From Diprion similis (taxonomy: Eukaryota; Arthropoda; Insecta; Hymenoptera; Diprionidae): a stretch of 64,000 bases of DNA. The notes beneath the pieces were generated by a model, which was not told the DNA's origin, made no database searches, and worked only from the letters and a program-made list of their open reading frames with translations. The position numbers and the translations under genes were made by a program. The stretch covers positions 15,336,001-15,400,000 of the forward strand of contig NC_060110.1 in NCBI RefSeq assembly GCF_021155765.1. Direction: 5' to 3'. Positions 50,536 to 61,500 of the stretch are shown one piece after another (position 1 is the stretch's first letter; every line of letters starts with the position of its first letter).

Positions 50536-53211
50536 CTAATCCGAATCTGTCAGTATTAAACCACCTTCATCATCGGTATATTCGCACTCTTCTAGCAGGC
50601 GTGTAGTCTCAGTCTCGTATTGCAACACTTCGTCATCTGCCAAATGTGAATTACCTTCCATGAAGTTAGCAAATCTATAATTCAATAAAAATTTGATAGT
50701 AATATCTGGTTCTCTATATCTGCAAGTGCATTATGTTCATAATCAAAACCACATAAACTAAGGTAAATCATTTCAAGTCCTCATCACATCATATTTTCTT
50801 ACTCGGTAAATGTCTTGAAAATATAGCGTACCTTACAATAGCATCTATTTATGATTAACGTGTATACTTTCATATTAGCTATGAGTTTTCGATAAATGGG
50901 AGCATAGATTTGAAATTCAGGGGGGTCAAATACAATAATTACTAGTCTAACAATGATGAAATTTGGCAATAAAAAACCTTATGGGATCTTTAAGTCTCAG
51001 AACTGTTTTCCATTGGTTGCATTCAGGGCTGGAGCAAAACTCTCTCAGAGAACTTAGTGCTACTTCTGTTTCTCGTACTCCCTCCTCGTGATACTCATCC
51101 TCAGTAAGTAATTTTCGGCGTTTAGGAAATCGTGCTCTCCTGATAAAGGACGAATTATAAGAAAAGAAAAGACATATTAGAAAAATTTTATACTCGACTT
51201 CCAAATACAACTTCGAAATATTATTAATATTTGAATAAGTATGGCGCAAATAAATTCAGCATTACAGGAAAGTTTTGGTTTTTAGCCACGATTTATTTTA
51301 CAAAATTATAAAATATAAATCAACAATATTTCTTTATGCAAATTTTGGAGAATCTCGAAATAGTTACAAAATCCGATCAGAATGAGCTCGGTCTAAAAAA
51401 AGAAAGAAAAATCCTTTGGAGTTATACGTTTAGACAGAATGGGGTTTTTTTACTTTATTCAAAAATTGAGATGTGTGAGCTAATTAGTAAATAAATTAAG
51501 CCGTCTGTAGAATCTATATGGCATCACAATTCTTGAGAAATGATAACCAATTGCTCTATTTCCATTTCTGAACAACTTTGAGAAAATACGTTTTGCACCA
51601 ACTACTTATCAGTTGCATAAATAAAAAAAAACTCACCAATAAGATTTACCCTTTTGCATCAAGGCATGTGGAAAATTGTATCCCAGAATTAACAATATGC
51701 AAATTCCAACAGCAGCCTCGTCAAAATAACTACTACAATATATCATTAAAAGACTTGATGCCTGAAATTTAAAAGTAAACAGATCAGTGATGAAAAATTG
51801 CATTGAAAAATAATAATCGATAGTAAAACAAATGTGTTTATATAAATACTGATTTTATATTGGGAGTGTGTTCTGGCTACGTACTAGTGTTTAATGATAT
51901 ATTTACCTGTAAAAACCATTGTATGATTTTTTTCGTACGTTTGTTCGTAACTGGGCCCAATCGGTAACAGACTATAAAGCTTACTAGAGAAGAGATTACT
52001 ATATACCAAATTACATATTCACGATACTGCATAACAATCATTCGGGCATTTTCCCATAACAGTTGTCCAAGATAAATGCTGACTGTCCATCCTCCAGCAG
52101 CTAATAAATACATAGATTTTCCCTGTCAAAGTCATATATGTAGATGAATTAGAAAGACGTCGATAAATTTTTTAACGATTATTCAGATTACAAGTGGAGA
52201 CAGCAATAAATGGCTGAAATTACATTCTGGACAGATGTACTTACTTTGGGAAGTAATCTACTAATGAGGTATATAAACACAAGTAACGAAGTTGTAATTC
52301 CAAGCGTTATACCACATATGTAATAAAATATGGGATCATAGCTCAATTTTTTTGCCAAGAGGAATACCAGGATACCCAATATCAGTAGCGTGACTTTCCA
52401 AAAATCGATTCCTAGTTATATAACATAACATTATTTCACTGTATCACGTTATATGTCTCATAATACTGATACAACATGGACGAGTTCATCGATATTATGA
52501 ATCACTATGTTCATATTGACTTATGGTAAGTCCAAGATTAATTATTTCATCAAAAATACTCACCTATCAATTTTACAGATATTCTGTATTCATGACTGGT
52601 ATCAATGCCAATGCAACTTTGCTGGAATGGATTCAATTTGATTTCCTTTTTCTTTCTACTGAAAAAATTTATGGACCACGAAGATCGATGTTCTTCAAAT
52701 TTTTTCACTACTTCCGCAGGCATGTTACCATCGTATTGACTATACGACTCTCCGTTCACATCTAGATTCATCTATCAATAATAGTAAATAATAATCAAAC
52801 TACGAATACTGTTAAGCTTCAGAAAATCATTGCATGCGGGTAGGTGAGCTTCATACTGATTTCGTTTCATTAGAAAACATAACTCAGGTACAATTTGTCG
52901 CTACATCAGTTTCAATTAATTTTACTAGGAAGAATTATCTCACCAGTACAGTTTGCCATATATGAATCAAGTATTTCGGCCTTCCTCTATAGCAATAAAT
53001 GTGCAATCCTCTCACTTCTTTTACGATATTGTCACCATCTTCCATATAAGTGACTAAAAATGTAATAGCATTAATGATGTACGCGAATGTAAATAAAAAT
53101 ATAGGTTATACAAAAATGCAAAGGTCTACCTGTGCCTCTAAGTTCCGCCTGCGTTTCAGTCAACGTACAAATGACGCAGATTAAGAAAAATTCGGGTATA
53201 AAAGTCCTCAT
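50536..53211 (-). CDS. Nemp: Nuclear envelope integral membrane protein (NEMP/TMEM194)
   Basis: Eight minus-strand exons: 53130-53211, 52944-53053, 52564-52771, 52245-52411, 51907-52122, 51637-51761, 50978-51139 and 50536-50674, giving 402 residues (human NEMP1 444). The N-terminus MRTFIPEFFLICVICTL is a signal-peptide-like segment, followed by a lumenal region with CYRGRPKYLIHIW. About five hydrophobic segments follow, with the family signatures SRLLPKGKSMYLLAAGGW and FIVCYRLGPVTN. The nucleoplasmic tail holds KLLTEDEY, LREFCSSPECNQWKTV and an acidic end, the conserved C-terminal block of the family. NEMP proteins sit in the inner nuclear membrane, stiffen the envelope and are needed for germline fertility in animals; that is family knowledge. 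The penultimate exon ends in a weak GTTTTT donor; reading through adds nine residues and a stop. The gene is divergent from the snoRNA host gene. Confidence 0.95.
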
Positions 53212-53477: not shown

Positions 53478-53684
53478 CTTTTCTCGAACGAGCTGTGAAC
53501 AGTTCCGTTGCGAGTTTGGATTCTTTCCGGTTTTCGGAGTCTTCCTGTTCGTAGTGTTCATCGGTCACTTCATCAAGCGACGCCACGAGGAGAGGTTATC
53601 CAAAATCTCAGGTGAGCATACTCGAAGCAATTCTTAGCGTCCGTTGAATCAATTTCCAATATTATAATTCCGCTATCTACGCAT

Positions 53685-53754
53685 CACTAATGATGAAAAT
53701 ATTTGTCTCGTTCGTATGAACTGTTGTATGATTATAACTACAAACCTGAAAATC
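53685..53754 (+). ncRNA. Box C/D snoRNA U30 homologue (intron 1)
   Basis: C box ATGATGA at 53690-53696; C'-like ATGATTA at 53728-53734; D box CTGA at 53746-53749. The guide GTCTCGTTCGT lies directly before ATGA, which serves as a degenerate D' box. It is complementary over 11 nt to 18S rRNA ACGAACGAGAC. The fifth nucleotide from D' pairs with the A of ACGAACG, the site methylated under U30 guidance (human 18S Am1383, numbering from memory). Ends are placed 5 nt outside the boxes. No clear terminal stem is seen. Confidence 0.75.
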
Positions 53755-54472
53755 ACGTGTAATGTGTACTCTACTCTGAGAGAATGAACTGACTCTGTTT
53801 GCTTAGTAATTTTTCCTATTGCATTTTCAGTTCCACAACGTAGCTGATCTATCAAGGTATGCTTTCTAATTGCAAATTACCTCATAATTTTCCCTCAATT
53901 CTCTGTAACATCATTTTTACACATTTCGTCCGCGACGCCACGTGTAACGCGCTGTAGGCTTGGCCATCCTCTGGTTGTACCGAGCATCGATTTATCAATT
54001 TGCAAATCCTCTGAACACGCGCTTCTGAAACATTTGGCTGAGAATTATGCAGTCTTTTTCGTATTTCTGATGAATTTTTCGTTATTCTAATTTGTCGAGT
54101 GAAAGTATGATCGAAATTTCCGGTACTTGTGATTTCCAATGGCCGTTATTTCAAGTGGAAAGCGACACTGGTTAAATTTTACAACTTGAAATAATGGGAC
54201 AGAACGTTAATTGGCTCATTCTTTGTTCTCGCCTTACTGGATTATTTACTGATCAGAACAACTGACATAAGTTTCTCAAAAGATTTTTTTTTTATAACGA
54301 TTTACCTTGATCTATTCATTTCGTCGTCAGAGAAAAAAAATTGAAATTTCACGTTCATTTCTATACCATTAAATATTCAAGTCAGTTTTAGGTAAAGTTA
54401 TCATGTATTACTTTTGAAATTATAGATACTGGTTCCCCAGATTTATAAACTGCTGAAATTTGATGCAAATTC

Positions 54473-54551
54473 TTAACATGATTAAGCTTATACCGCCCCA
54501 GTCTGATTTCTGTGACTGATTGGTTTACTCAATGATTTTGTCCTGTTTACT
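54473..54551 (+). ncRNA. Divergent U31 snoRNA copy A (intron 2)
   Basis: ATGATTA (54478-54484, imperfect C box) is followed by the guide ATACCGCCCCAGT and a perfect D' CTGA at 54503-54506, then TGTGACT as C'. The expected D box is degraded; CTGT at 54543-54546 is the best candidate and fits the intron spacing. The guide is complementary to 28S ACTGGGGCGGTA, the U31/snR67 target (human Gm4166 from memory). The copy may be functional through its C'/D' half only, or decaying. Confidence 0.55.
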
Positions 54552-54762
54552 TATCTTTTCTAATTCATTTGATAGCATTCAGTATCTAATTTTTACAATT
54601 ATCAATTTGCAGAGAATCATTAACCATGAGGGAAGTTAGCTGCAAGTTTCCACAGACTGAGAAAAATGAACGAGTAGGTATTTTATATTCTTTGATATAT
54701 TTTTTTCATTGCAATAATTGCACAACATTTTTTTGGTGTGTCAACACTTTCAAATATAGATT

Positions 54763-54834
54763 TTTTAATGATGAATTTTATATCGCCCCAGTCTGATTAC
54801 TGTGATTGATTGATTACTATATGTGCTGAATACT
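54763..54834 (+). ncRNA. U31 snoRNA copy B (intron 3)
   Basis: C box ATGATGA at 54768-54774; guide TATCGCCCCAGT; D' CTGA at 54793-54796; C'-like GTGATTG; D box CTGA at 54826-54829, 74 nt before the acceptor. The guide pairs with 28S ACTGGGGCGGTA over 12 positions with one G-U, and the fifth nucleotide points to the second G of ACTGG, the U31 target. Copy A shares the same core, so the two arose by duplication. Confidence 0.85.
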
Positions 54835-55124
54835 CAAAGTTCCACACATTAGAATGCATACTCGTGTTCTTGCTTCAAATAAAATTTTAATTATTGTTCA
54901 CAGATTCGTATGACTGTACATTTGCAGCGAAAAAGAAAAAAGATGACGTGATACAGTGAGTATTTCATGCGAAGTTTTTGAAATTATATAAGCGATTTTG
55001 TAAAATTGTTGAATAATTGAAATACTTCAGTGAGATCGTGATTCAGTAAAAATCTTCTGAGATTTTGATAGTTAAATTTTTATCCATTGAAATCAATGTC
55101 TTGTAAAACTATACAATTACCTAT

Positions 55125-55188
55125 TCTGAATGATGTTTTGACAAGCATATGTCTGATAATCGTGATGCCATATTTAACCCTGACTCTC
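55125..55188 (+). ncRNA. U27 snoRNA copy A (intron 4)
   Basis: C box ATGATGT at 55130-55136; guide TTGACAAGCATATG; D' CTGA at 55153-55156; C' GTGATGC at 55162-55168; D box CTGA at 55180-55183, 69 nt before the acceptor. The guide is complementary to CATATGCTTGTC near the 5' end of 18S rRNA, the U27 target (human 18S Am27). Vertebrate U27 carries the same GACAAGCATATG core. Confidence 0.88.
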
Positions 55189-55401
55189 ATTAGTTGTTAC
55201 AGCATCATAATGTGCTCATTATAGCTGTTATATGTAGTGTTCGTTTTTTCAGGGAGGAGGATTCAGATGGTGAAGAAAAACTCTTACCCACTTATGCAAA
55301 TGGTAAATACCACAATATTTTAACACTTGACATGTTATTATTTGCAACTCAGTGTATTCTAAAATTATTTGCTATAAATTTTTGTGAAAATATCGAATAT
55401 T

Positions 55402-55468
55402 TAAACGTGATGAATACTTGTTATCCCTGTCATACAATTATGTGGTGATACTGTACTGCCTGAATTTA
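55402..55468 (+). ncRNA. snR38 (SNORD1)-type snoRNA copy A (intron 5)
   Basis: C box GTGATGA at 55407-55413; guide TTGTTATCCCTGT; degenerate D' CATA; C' GTGATAC at about 55445-55451; D box CTGA at 55460-55463. A 5-bp terminal stem is possible (TTAAA 55401-55405 with TTTAA 55465-55469). The guide pairs over 11 nt with 28S ACAGGGATAAC of the peptidyl-transferase region; the fifth nucleotide points to the middle G of AGGG (yeast Gm2815, human Gm4392, from memory), the snR38 target. Confidence 0.82.
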
Positions 55469-55747
55469 ATTGACTAAACAGTTTGCTTCTTGGTGTTCAT
55501 ACTCTCTTCTCACGCACTTTTTTTCTCTTGCAGTTTGAAATATCAAGGTCAATTAGAGCCCTGGATCAATAACTACAAAAAAGTCTGATTTCAGCCTATA
55601 GTGGTAAGTTTTGTTAAAAACCAATTCACCTCTATGAAATTTGTACCATTCAATTGTATTGAATTTAGAAATGTTTTTTACTACATATTCTGGTTTATTG
55701 TTCAACCTGCAATTATTCGTCTCTTGATTGAAGCATAGATATGTTGA

Positions 55748-55817
55748 TTACAATGATGAATAATGTTAGTTATCCCTGTCTTACTCAACTGTGGTGACCA
55801 TATTAACACTGAAACGA
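55748..55817 (+). ncRNA. snR38 (SNORD1)-type snoRNA copy B (intron 6)
   Basis: C box ATGATGA at 55753-55759; guide TAGTTATCCCTGT; D' CTTA, one mismatch from CTGA; C' GTGACCA-like at about 55793; D box CTGA at 55809-55812, 71 nt before the acceptor. The guide matches 28S ACAGGGATAACT over 12 nt and points to the same G as copy A. Confidence 0.85.
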
Positions 55818-56047
55818 GAATGAAGATTTAATACTCATCACTGAAATGTGTTGTATCTTATAAAATGGCGTATTGTTATGCAGGGTTATCATGAATTCGA
55901 TTGGAACGGGCACTGTCAATGGCAGCAGAGACAAGGTGAAATTGAGGTAAATAACGTTTGAAGTCTACACTATTCAAAAGCTTGAATTATGTAATTGATT
56001 GTAATATCCTGTTTTAAAAATGATTTGATTACCATATTAACAGTTCT

Positions 56048-56114
56048 ATTAAATGATGATTTATTGACAAGCATATGACTGAAAATATTTGATGTCTCAA
56101 TTATTCTGATTAAA
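56048..56114 (+). ncRNA. U27 snoRNA copy B (intron 7)
   Basis: C box ATGATGA at 56053-56059; guide TTGACAAGCATATGA; D' CTGA at 56079-56082; C'-like TGATGTC at about 56090; D box CTGA at 56106-56109. A 4-bp terminal stem forms between TTAA 56049-56052 and TTAA 56110-56113. The guide is perfectly complementary to TCATATGCTTGTC of 18S rRNA (human Am27 site). Its boxes are closer to consensus than those of copy A. Confidence 0.9.
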
Positions 56115-56373
56115 TTTCTCCACATTATACGCGTGATTCATCCCTATCGATCAGTTAATAATATCCTACCTTCTCCATGTTTCAGAACCATCCAAATGCA
56201 GTTTGCATAGAGCGGCATTTCCATCATTTATAATAATGTGAGTATCTCATTGAAGAAAACAGCATTTCTCAGTAAATTCATTGAAATAGAAATTGGACAC
56301 AGCGGAAAACCGCGGTTCAATGTAGTTCTAAATGTTGATGCTTAGTGAATAAAATGCTTTTCCGTTATTAAAA

Positions 56374-56445
56374 ATATCATGATGAATCCAACAACGCTCC
56401 AGTCAATCAGATTGCTCAGTGGCGAAATGTTGTATACTGAAAATT
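56374..56445 (+). ncRNA. Orphan box C/D snoRNA (intron 8)
   Basis: C box ATGATGA at 56379-56385 and D box CTGA at 56437-56440, 62 nt apart end to end and 78 nt before the acceptor, matching its neighbours. A CAGA at about 56408 could be a poor D'. The stretch before D (GGCGAAATGTTGTATA) and the stretch before CAGA match no rRNA segment I can recall. It may guide an unusual site, a spliceosomal RNA or nothing. Confidence 0.6.
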
Positions 56446-56740
56446 GTTACACTAGATCAGCTCTTAGAAGTTTGCAAAGTCTATTGTGACTTACGCGTCT
56501 TTTTATCTGTTTTTACAGGACTACCTCAAGCTGCCTGGAGGTACATAATTCTCGAAATGGTAAGTGCATTGTTCCAATCGTGAAAGTTGGCCTGTATCTA
56601 CCTAGCACATATTAACTTCTTCAGTAAAAAATGTAATCGTTTCTTGTATGCAAATTCAATTGCTCAAATTACAGCGCTATCACTTGAAATTTGAAGAATT
56701 TTTTCTAAAGTCTACTTCTACTATAGATTTACTTACCCTG

Positions 56741-56817
56741 CAATTATGATGATTCAATAATATACGCTAATATTACCATTTATTTGGTATGATTATAACT
56801 TGCCCTCTCTGATAATT
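56741..56817 (+). ncRNA. Dual-guide C/D snoRNA for 18S rRNA (intron 9)
   Basis: C box ATGATGA at 56746-56752; ATTA as degenerate D'; C' ATGATTA at 56789-56795; D box CTGA at 56809-56812. AATT 56742-56745 and AATT 56814-56817 can form a short terminal stem. The guide before D (ACTTGCCCTCT) pairs with 18S GGAGGGCAAGT, its fifth nucleotide pointing to GGAG-G. The guide before D' (TATACGCTA) pairs with 18S TAGCGTATA and points to the first G there. The two Gs are 43 nt apart in the remembered 18S sequence, agreeing with human Gm601 and Gm644. Confidence 0.75.
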
Positions 56818-57560
56818 TGGTGGATAATATCGACATTGATTCTTTCCAATTCAAACTTATAACAATATGCATTGTTGTGTCTATTTAGGAGGACCATTTG
56901 ACACGTTCGATGGAAATGCCAGATAAAAATGTAAGTAAAAATCTGAAGAAATGTACTACCATGATAACGATTCATTTGGTGACCAATATCTCAAACGCGT
57001 CAGGCCGCAGTAATTGCGCGTGTCTAGAAATTTATTCGTAAACTTATTCATCATATTGCCAGATATCGCGAAGATCAATTATTCAGGGTGGACATAAGAT
57101 CTAGAAATTGGTTAACCAAGAAAATGTCAGAGAATTGGTACGGTCTAGAAAAGTCTAAGAATGTAGTGTATTCAACCAAAAGTCGGAAATATTTTTTACA
57201 AAAACGTTTTATGCATTTGAAGGCTATGATGTGCCTGAGGTGATATGGGGCAAGGCACTGCCTCTACTGAAATGGAGTGTATATTTATAATTTTGATGAA
57301 GCCCGCGCCACCTTTGCCATGGATTGATAATTCATAAGTCACGAGTTTGTAACAAAATAAATATTATCTGTATAATGCAAAATAACGGACAAGCAAAAAG
57401 AATTAATTGTCGTACTGGAAAAGCTGGAAAAGTTGGGAAATTTCAAATCTCAAATTTTATGACCACACTGATATTCCAATCCCATCTTTCGAGCGCCGAA
57501 TATAGTTTTATATCTTCCAAAAAAGTATCTTGAGATTCAACCAAAAAGAGTAGATTGGAA

Positions 57561-57632
57561 ATAGTATGATGTTACAAGTATATACGCTAAGATGATCAAG
57601 TAGATGATTTCGTCGTGCCCTCACTGACTTCA
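57561..57632 (+). ncRNA. 18S-guide C/D snoRNA paralogue 2 (intron 10)
   Basis: C box ATGATGT at 57566-57572; guide TATATACGCTAAG before ATGA (D'); GATGATT as C' at about 57603; D box CTGA at 57624-57627, 69 nt before the acceptor. It shares TATACGCTA, the C' region and GCCCTC-A/T-CTGA with the intron-9 RNA. The D' guide for 18S TAGCGTATA is kept, but the D guide (CGTGCCCTCA) is reduced to a core of about 7 bp, so the second target may be lost. Confidence 0.68.
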
Positions 57633-57808
57633 ACATAATAAATTTAAAACTCTTTGAGGTCTTTCAAATTATTCACACAAAATTGTATCGTTTCAGGTCT
57701 CAACGAGTGACTTGAATTCTTTCGACATGCATCTGATTTGACAGAAGCTGGTTTCCAGTTTTTATTAGTAAGTAAATTTGAACATAAGTTGAAATTACTT
57801 TTATTTTT

Positions 57809-57870
57809 TTACAATGATGACTTAATATACGCAATGATTACCTATGAAGATAAAATGTTGACTGAATTTC
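57809..57870 (+). ncRNA. 18S-guide C/D snoRNA paralogue 3 (intron 11)
   Basis: C box ATGATGA at 57814-57820; guide CTTAATATACGC; ATGATTA supplying ATTA as D'; D box CTGA at 57862-57865, 72 nt before the acceptor (a second CTGA lies at 57873). The guide is complementary to 18S GCGTATATTAA over 11 nt and, using ATTA as D', points to the same G as its two paralogues. The D-side guide (AAAATGTTGA) has no target I recognise. It is shorter than typical (52 nt between boxes inclusive). Confidence 0.55.
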
Positions 57871-58040
57871 GTCTGAATTAATATGTAAGGAAGTATCTCT
57901 TAGACCATATGTGGACAATTTCGTTGAAATGTTTCAGATTAACGGAAACTTAACTCTGATGAAGATAGTATCCCCGGGTATCGGATTCTGTAATCAATAA
58001 TAATGTATTTCTGTGCAATTAAAAAAAAAAAATACATAGA

Positions 58041-58509: not shown

Positions 58510-61500
58510 TTATATTGTATAATCTGTTACTGGATTGAATTCTCTCTGATGAGAAACGTTCAATGCTGGCACGTAACCCCAGTGTTTCATTGCAACAAGG
58601 CAATGATGTTGAATTTCTTCGACTTCTTCGAAGTCTAAATCTTGTCTCCAATGAAAGGGAGCGGTCTTTGAATTTCTGTAACTACTGAACTCGTTACCAG
58701 TGTCAGTTTTCGTATGAGTGTCCAGAAACTTTTTAACGTTCGGATGAAAATTGAGTCCATAAAATTGAAAAAGTTCTTCCACTTGTTTATACGGCTCCGC
58801 ACAAAGATCTTCATATCTTAACACTCTGTAATGATGATAATCTCATTATTTGAGTCGTGTATGGGATGGGGCTTGTCCAAAGAGATTTGTGAGACTATCT
58901 ATCCCAAGGGTTCAAAATTACTCAATAATAAATAAAACCATAAAAACTTCACACCTAACTTTCAAAAAACTGTAATAAACTAGTTGTCTTTTCATTTTTT
59001 CCCATTTTGTTTCGTATTTCACATACCAATAATTCATTTCATCTGAATACTTGGAGCACAAAAGATTTATTGAAGAATGATCTGATTGTGATGATATTTA
59101 TTAAAAAATGTGAGAAAAAATGACGTAAGTAACTATCGAATCGTCCATACGGTATGATTACTGCGACTCTACTCTTAAAACAAAGGTGATTTGAAAAATC
59201 TGCTTACCTAAATGTAGAGGGATATTTATTTTGCAGTTCCACCGCGGCGTTATAATCTGACACTAAGTCCGCGCAAAGTAAACCTGCATCTACACAGTCC
59301 CGACCTCTTTGGCAAAAAGGAGTATGTTTTCTCGACTGAAGAGTTCCACGGGGATCCCTTACCAAAAGTAGCAATCTCACAGCCAATCTGGAAACCGACA
59401 GCCGGTGAAATTCAAAATATTGCCAAATAATTAACGATATTTTGCCATTTAAAAAACGGTACGGGGTTCAGTCAAATACCAGAGCAAAAGGGGGAAATTT
59501 AGTTTTCACCACACCTGCGCGGAATGCACAACTTTTGGCCCCTCGCTTAAACGCGAAGTTGTACTTTCCGATGCAGGGGATGGTGAAAAATAGTATACGT
59601 CACACGGGAGTGAAAAAGGCTATTCCAAACTACGTGGTTTGTAATAGTCATTTTTCCCTCCCTGGGTGCGTAATAAACTATTTCATGAAATCAAATGCAC
59701 TTGAAAGACTAGCGAATTATTTTCGAAGTCAATTCCTTTCGGATAATGGATTGCAGTTAAAAATCCACGTGTGGGGTATAAATGAATATAAAATCACATG
59801 AAGTAATCTTTCAACGGAAATGAGATTCACACTGCAAAATTGTTCCGTCAGCCGCGTTATTCGTCATCAAAGCGACAGGAAATCACTAAACCTCTTTTTA
59901 ATGCTTGAATCGCAAGTGTGCATGATGGCTGGTTCCAATGGTTACTTGTTTTAGATGTTAATACATGTCGGACTGATTACTTCACTAACTTTTTGTCTGC
60001 AAGAAGTTCCTGTACGATATGTAACCTCAGGCGTATAAGCTTCACTAATTGGAATGGAAATAGTTTACACATCTCGCTGAGAAATCGGCGATTATAGCAG
60101 ATGCTTTCGTGAGCTTGGCATTGAGTCCCAAGAGGTGGATTAACCTGAAAAATCCAAGGATGAGTCTTCACCCATTCTATATGGTGACCTGAAAAATATA
60201 ATTAGTTATAATGTCATTTTAATGCACGTACTATACAGCCTTTGAGAGTACAAATATTGCAACTCAAGTAAAGCGCATATATATTCTTGTCGGGCATAGC
60301 TATACAAGAATACTAAAACTGTCCTCAGTGAGTTTTCAAGCAACACTCAACCTGTTATGTCCTTACTAAAAAAAAAATTTCCTCGTAATTACAACTATAT
60401 AACCTAATCATTTTCTGAGTAATTCGAAAAATGTGATTTTCCGGTTGTAAATTTTTTCAACTTGGATGTCCATGATGGACTTTTGTTGATTTTTTTTCAA
60501 ATACTTAGCAAAAAAAAAAAACATCAAACAAATAGCTTTTCAAATATCGACTGAAAAAAAGAAAATTGAAAATGGCCATTTCTACATGTTCCTTTTGGGG
60601 TACAATTATAAAACTTACATCAAATGTTTTTCGTTCACTTTCTTAATTCAATCACTGGTTTTGTATGTTCCGTCACTCAGGATTTTTTTAAAATTTTATC
60701 GATGTATAGATGCACATTGGAAAAAATATAAAAACGACCTCTAAATTCAAGTCAGATCTCGCCATATCAATTCAAAAACTCGTTGCAAATATAAACCTCA
60801 GTTTCATCGTTAACTCTAAAAAATTTCATTGGGAGAATATCGAACGCTCCATTGAGAATCGGATCGAAAGCAAAAAATCAAGGCTGAAGCTCTGGCGCAC
60901 AGCAATAATAAGTTTTCAAATATTACCCTTTTGGCGTACATACGCAGTGATTTATGGTATAAACGATTGCCAAAAGCTTCAGAACTCATTGGAAAGAAAG
61001 ATTATGTAAAGGAAATTTTTTTCTGACACCTTGAGATCTGGTTGGGGCATGTTTTGTGAGGGGAAAACAGCTCATGAACTCTGGAAAAAGAGGAGCGAAC
61101 GTTACATGTAAATTCATTGGCGCTAATGGCCGCATTTGTAGAACTAAAATTTTTTGCAGTAGACATAAAGAATTACGAAATACTTTTCAGAGTCTACAAT
61201 TCACATAGAAAACCAGTATTTTCCGAAAGTCTTATAATTGTACCTTATTAGGAATACATTGGAATGGCCATTTCCAATTTTCTTTACTTTGTTAGAAATC
61301 AAGTTTTGCTCCGAAATATTTGAAAAGCTATTTAATTGATGTTTTCGTCGTTAAGTATTTGGAAAAAATGAACCAGAATACATCATAAATATACAGAATA
61401 AGAATATAGCATCTGAAAATCACATTTTTCCTATTACTCGCGAAATAAAGAAAGAAATTTTTCTTTTCAGTCATGATATAATCGTGTATCTCCCTCAAAA

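Follow-up and report, generated by a model that had tools for sequence, protein, structure and literature searches.

A probable non-coding snoRNA host gene with one C/D element in each of eleven introns in the hymenopteran Diprion similis

We analysed a stretch of 64,000 nucleotides (nt) from Diprion similis (contig NC_060110.1 of assembly GCF_021155765.1, positions 15,336,001 to 15,400,000; hereafter the window). The focus here is a probable non-coding host gene for small nucleolar RNAs (snoRNAs) on the forward strand, at 53478..58040 of the window. An earlier note, made from the sequence alone, had described eleven consecutive introns at this locus with C and D boxes at snoRNA spacing. That description held up: 11/11 introns have GT-AG ends and each contains one C/D element, although the elements were picked by hand, one per intron, and the eleven do not represent a blind count.

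Architecture of the locus

Splice-site reading divides the gene into 12 exons and 11 introns, all on the forward strand, with transcript ends that we infer. Exon 1 (53478..53611) opens with the pyrimidine-rich run CTTTTCTC (53478..53485). A start on a pyrimidine run is a trait of terminal oligopyrimidine (TOP) genes, and a 5' TOP start is a feature of UHG/SNHG-type host genes; the run is a possible example, judged from a predicted start site. Downstream follow exon 2 (53831..53856), exon 3 (54613..54673), exon 4 (54904..54955), exon 5 (55253..55302), exon 6 (55534..55603), exon 7 (55884..55946), exon 8 (56186..56237), exon 9 (56519..56559), exon 10 (56889..56930), exon 11 (57697..57767) and exon 12 (57938..58020). 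The 3' end of the last is a predicted one, and position 58040, proposed in the earlier note, is equally possible. The exons measure 26-134 nt and join to an RNA of 745 nt.

The elements, named I1 to I11 after their introns, carry an exact C box and a CTGA D box in eight of eleven cases. Box C reads ATGATGT in I4 and I10, where the last base is changed, and I2 combines the C box ATGATTA with the D box ATGA. In the kink-turn the sixth base of the C box pairs with the first base of the D box, and the two changes in I2 would thus compensate each other by replacing a G-C with a U-A pair. Exact pairs of boxes (RTGATGA and CTGA, 48-64 nt apart) are concentrated in the 4.54-kb gene, with nine on the forward strand (from 8 C boxes) and one on the reverse strand, against one and none, respectively, in the other 59.7 kb of the window. 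When one mismatch in the C box is allowed, the gene has 15 forward and 2 reverse pairs and the rest of the window 14 and 15.

The placement of the elements within their introns is uniform on one side. From the end of the D box to the end of the intron the distance is 69-81 nt in 11/11 introns (mean about 74, standard deviation 3.8), and not one of 200,000 random placements gave a spacing this tight. On the 5' side, between splice site and element, the distance ranges from 46 to 635 nt.

Families and ribosomal RNA targets

A scan of the whole window against Rfam returned two matches above cut-off, both to SNORD31 (RF00089; cut-off 40 bits), whose guide addresses a 28S site. They are I2 (U31a, 54473..54540, 51.9 bits) and I3 (U31b, 54763..54834, 52.3 bits). 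For SNORD27 (RF00086; cut-off 52 bits), I4 (U27-type a, 55125..55188) reaches 27.4 bits and I7 (U27-type b, 56048..56114) 34.3 bits; both fall short though their guide to 18S A28 is intact, and we propose that they work like U27. Similarly, I5 (snR38-type a, 55402..55468, 39.8 bits) and I6 (snR38-type b, 55748..55817, 35.3 bits) miss the cut-off of snoR38 (RF00213; 45 bits) though the guide is intact, and they probably work like snR38. The U30-like I1 (53685..53754) scores 21.5 bits with SNORD30 (RF00088; cut-off 40) and slightly more, 24.1 bits, with snoU18 (cut-off 47). The remaining elements are I8 (56374..56445), a diverged U31-like or orphan element at 18.8 bits with SNORD31, and I9 (56741..56817), I10 (57561..57632) and I11 (57809..57870). 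No match to U54 (RF00206) was listed for I9-I11 in the Rfam scan, and apart from a stray SNORD103 match (16.3 bits, cut-off 45) partly overlapping I9, no family fitted these three. The check with Rfam models of U27, U30, U31 and snR38 that the earlier note had suggested thus bears out U31, with the other three below cut-off.

Comparison of the introns with one another gave E values of 6e-11 for I2/I3, 2e-6 for I4/I7, 0.002 for I5/I6, 0.002 for I9/I10 and 0.02 for I9/I11, and in each of these five pairs the similarity is confined to the snoRNA. The copies of U31, U27 and snR38 are therefore best described as paralogues. Four further pairs share chance-like matches of 12-17 nt (E 0.008 to 0.1). 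I10 and I11 both resemble I9, and for the kinship of these three elements the shared guide appears to be a better sign than sequence similarity. I8 agrees with U31 at 13/23 positions after the C box (shuffle P about 0.001); 122 other places in the window equal this agreement, and descent of I8 from U31 is only a possibility.

The guides next to the D' boxes were compared with the organism's own 18S ribosomal RNA (rRNA) and the 3' part of its 28S rRNA. The latter lies at positions 2469-3591 of L020, inside a 14.3-Mb contig, the sole place of the exact 28S pattern. In 10/11 elements the D' guide scores 10-14 at a conserved methylation site. For each of the ten, no more than 2 of 60 runs with shuffled rRNA did as well, and these runs do not correct for the D' register having been fixed beforehand from families and paralogues. 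The guides of I2 and I3 form 14-nt (14-bp) pairings at the 28S G aligned with Escherichia coli G2251, the U31 site. Those of I4 (12 bp) and I7 (13 bp) pair at 18S A28, the U27 site, and those of I5 (11 bp) and I6 (score 13.4) at the 28S G aligned with E. coli G2446, the snR38 site. The U27, U31 and snR38 guides named in the earlier note are hence confirmed as two of each type, pairing with their own rRNA sites. I9, I10 and I11 direct their D' guides to 18S G618, the U54 site, and I1 pairs over 11 bp with 18S A1394, a site of the Am1383 type. The earlier statement that most elements carry recognisable guides, some to 18S sites, stands with the ten and with sites that can now be named (G618 and perhaps G575, discussed below); it does not extend to I8. 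The putative U54-site guides in introns 9-11 are new relative to that note.

Only one guide next to a D box stands out among the eleven, that of I9, whose pairing with 18S G575 is equalled in 3/60 shuffled runs; the other ten D guides do no better than chance, with 24 to 59 of the 60 runs reaching their score. We take G575 to be the site of human Gm601. In yeast numbering, the 18S sites A28, G618, A1394 and G575 are 28, 595, 1326 and 552. The rRNA methylation table in PMC3511168 lists Am27/28 for U27, Gm4166 for U31, Gm4362 for snR38 and Gm644 (Arabidopsis Gm597) for U54, as well as Am1383 (Arabidopsis Am1327); yeast 595 and 1326 were equated with the U54 and Am1383 sites by allowing for the slight difference between Arabidopsis and yeast numbering. 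The same table assigns U30 to 28S Am3804. Of the U30 guide claimed earlier, the weak family resemblance of I1 survives, and the pairing found is with 18S A1394. I1 may target both sites, since the comparison covered a 3' part of the 28S that does not reach the U30 site.

The 269-Mb assembly containing the window was also searched for further copies, a search that diverged copies could escape. SNORD31 matches at E 0.001 are limited to I2 and I3 (61 best candidates scored). For snR38 the best two matches lie in the host gene and a third, elsewhere, reaches 26.9 bits (62 scored). Searched as an exact pattern, the U27 guide plus D' box occurs twice, both times in the host gene; the D guide of I9 with its box occurs once, and the host gene as a whole matches only itself. 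The 13-base pattern of the I1 guide has 12 exact matches, the one in the host gene among them; the backward control gives 1, and a hand estimate predicts about 7. No C box lies within 30 nt upstream of the six examined among the 11 other matches. Contig C1 of this assembly starts with TTAGG arrays, as in insects.

Alternative explanations

Several results weigh against a dedicated snoRNA host gene. Nine of the eleven elements fall short of an Rfam cut-off, with I1 and I4-I8 matching their likely family below it. The D' box is an exact CTGA in four (I2, I3, I4 and I7) and differs by one base in I1, I6 and I10, by two in I5, I9 and I11 and by three in I8. Terminal stems are at chance across the eleven (mean 2.5 bp vs 2.6 expected), with 4-5 bp in I5, I7 and I9, and external duplexes around the elements are no better than chance; the Rfam consensus of SNORD31 itself has merely 2 pairs in its terminal stem. 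A branch-point motif of the CTRAY type is present in the last 65 nt of 8/11 introns, often at unlikely positions. As for the guides, a first scan that left the choice of D' free and used yeast 18S together with incomplete 28S sequences from other eukaryotes, lacking the 3' part, gave a modest excess over expectation (13 matches vs 6.5 at a score of at least 10, 5 vs 2.2 at 11 and 3 vs 0.67 at 12). The second scan used the preset register, for which its shuffles do not correct, and it left the D' guide of I8 at chance, equalled by 17/60 shuffles and without clear target.

The low Rfam scores and the missing stem signal would also fit a decayed host gene in which several of the elements have become pseudogenes and ceased to be produced, as would the non-canonical boxes of I2, I4 and I10, the poor D' boxes and the weak I8. 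Against such decay speak the intact guides in 10/11 elements, the apparent compensation between the boxes of I2, the distance from D box to intron end kept in 11/11, and the genome searches, which turned up neither a further U31 match nor a further U27 guide. We consider it unlikely. Less likely still is a protein-coding gene with snoRNAs in its introns. Ribosomal protein genes provide the precedent: according to PMC13228274, host-gene introns hold 95% of the snoRNAs expressed in Drosophila S2 cells and ribosomal protein genes host 30%. The spliced RNA does contain a stop-free stretch of 63 codons, but its longest open reading frame (ORF) starting with ATG spans 31 amino acids in the 745 nt, against a mean of 42 in shuffled sequences, and 74.65% of 2000 shuffles have one as long or longer. 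With an ORF length no better than shuffles, a coding gene at 53478..58040 was rejected. C/D-like motifs arising by chance in AT-rich introns, for which the one-mismatch pairs found elsewhere in the window (about 0.24 per kb) might argue, are scarcely credible in view of the spacing and guide results and the Rfam SNORD31 matches.

We thus assign a probability of roughly 95% to a dedicated non-coding snoRNA host gene. Spacing, guides and the 31-residue longest ORF agree with the earlier suggestion of a UHG-type non-coding host with one C/D guide per intron, and by the features tested the locus would work like, and belong with, the UHG/SNHG non-coding host genes.

Genomic setting, known relatives and proposed role

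Coding sequence of the opposite strand lies on both sides of the host gene. Head to head with it is a gene with a NEMP-family exon (50947-53211, reverse strand; Pfam match 50947-51255), whose extent was read from the sequence and whose likely first codon lies about 270 bp upstream of the host start. Just downstream, an exon at 58510-58842 of the reverse strand encodes a sulfotransferase domain (Pfam PF00685). Within the host gene, introns 1 and 2 contain CACGTG E-boxes at 53754 and 53939. Myc is bound at E-boxes of some Drosophila Uhg genes; we make no claim on those seen here because CACGTG occurs 18 times across the window. The long intron 2 also holds a near-perfect 14-nt inverted repeat (54143-54197), which was considered as an H/ACA element and rejected, as its folding is no better than that of shuffled sequences (z -0.42). 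A structured RNA in intron 10 was dismissed on the same grounds (z 1.60).

Among known host genes, the Drosophila cluster at 54E, for which we found no paper, carries U27, U29, U31, U76 and snR38. The Drosophila genes Uhg1-Uhg8, according to PMC4430873, lack a recognisable ORF and have as many as 16 introns, all but two with a single snoRNA. The Diprion gene shares with them the absence of a long ORF and has a single predicted snoRNA per intron, and differs in having 11 introns and three putative U54-site guides in its set. Repeated guides are a further likeness to Uhg1, whose 16 snoRNAs, according to the same source, address five exclusive rRNA positions and whose loss slows growth. The two U27-type copies recall a Drosophila family with three isoforms, two of them predicted for 18S Am28 (PMC13228274). 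In vertebrates, UHG/SNHG1 is likewise a host gene RNA, for which Table 1 of PMC3676775 lists six snoRNAs, U27, U30 and U31 included. The matches listed in Rfam scans of the Diprion gene include none to U22, U28 or U29, and snR38 and U54, whose sites the Diprion guides address, are outside the SNHG1 list in that table. Among the matches listed in literature searches bearing on an insect counterpart, none dealt with this gene.

The locus might operate as follows. RNA polymerase II would make a single host transcript, and splicing would free each intron. Core C/D proteins would bind the element, some 74 nt upstream of the 3' splice site, and trimming would leave a snoRNA of about 62-77 nt, with the spliced exons as a by-product. 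The snoRNAs are predicted to guide 2'-O-methylation of 18S rRNA at A28, G618, A1394 and perhaps G575, and of 28S rRNA at the U31 and snR38 sites.

More tentatively, the gene could descend from an old animal UHG locus in which U27, U30-like and U31 guides were kept together as in SNHG1. It might then be this insect's only source of U27 and U31, and perhaps of snR38; the extra copies would be a safeguard, and introns 9-11 would have gained a U54-site subfamily. We regard this history as possible but doubtful.

The locus looks like an ordinary, well-supported host gene and a fresh example of a type known from flies and vertebrates. It adds a well-defined insect non-coding snoRNA host gene for which the rRNA methylation targets are predicted one by one. 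Since no other genomic source was found for some of the guides, deletion of this single locus would test the role of a few conserved rRNA methylations.

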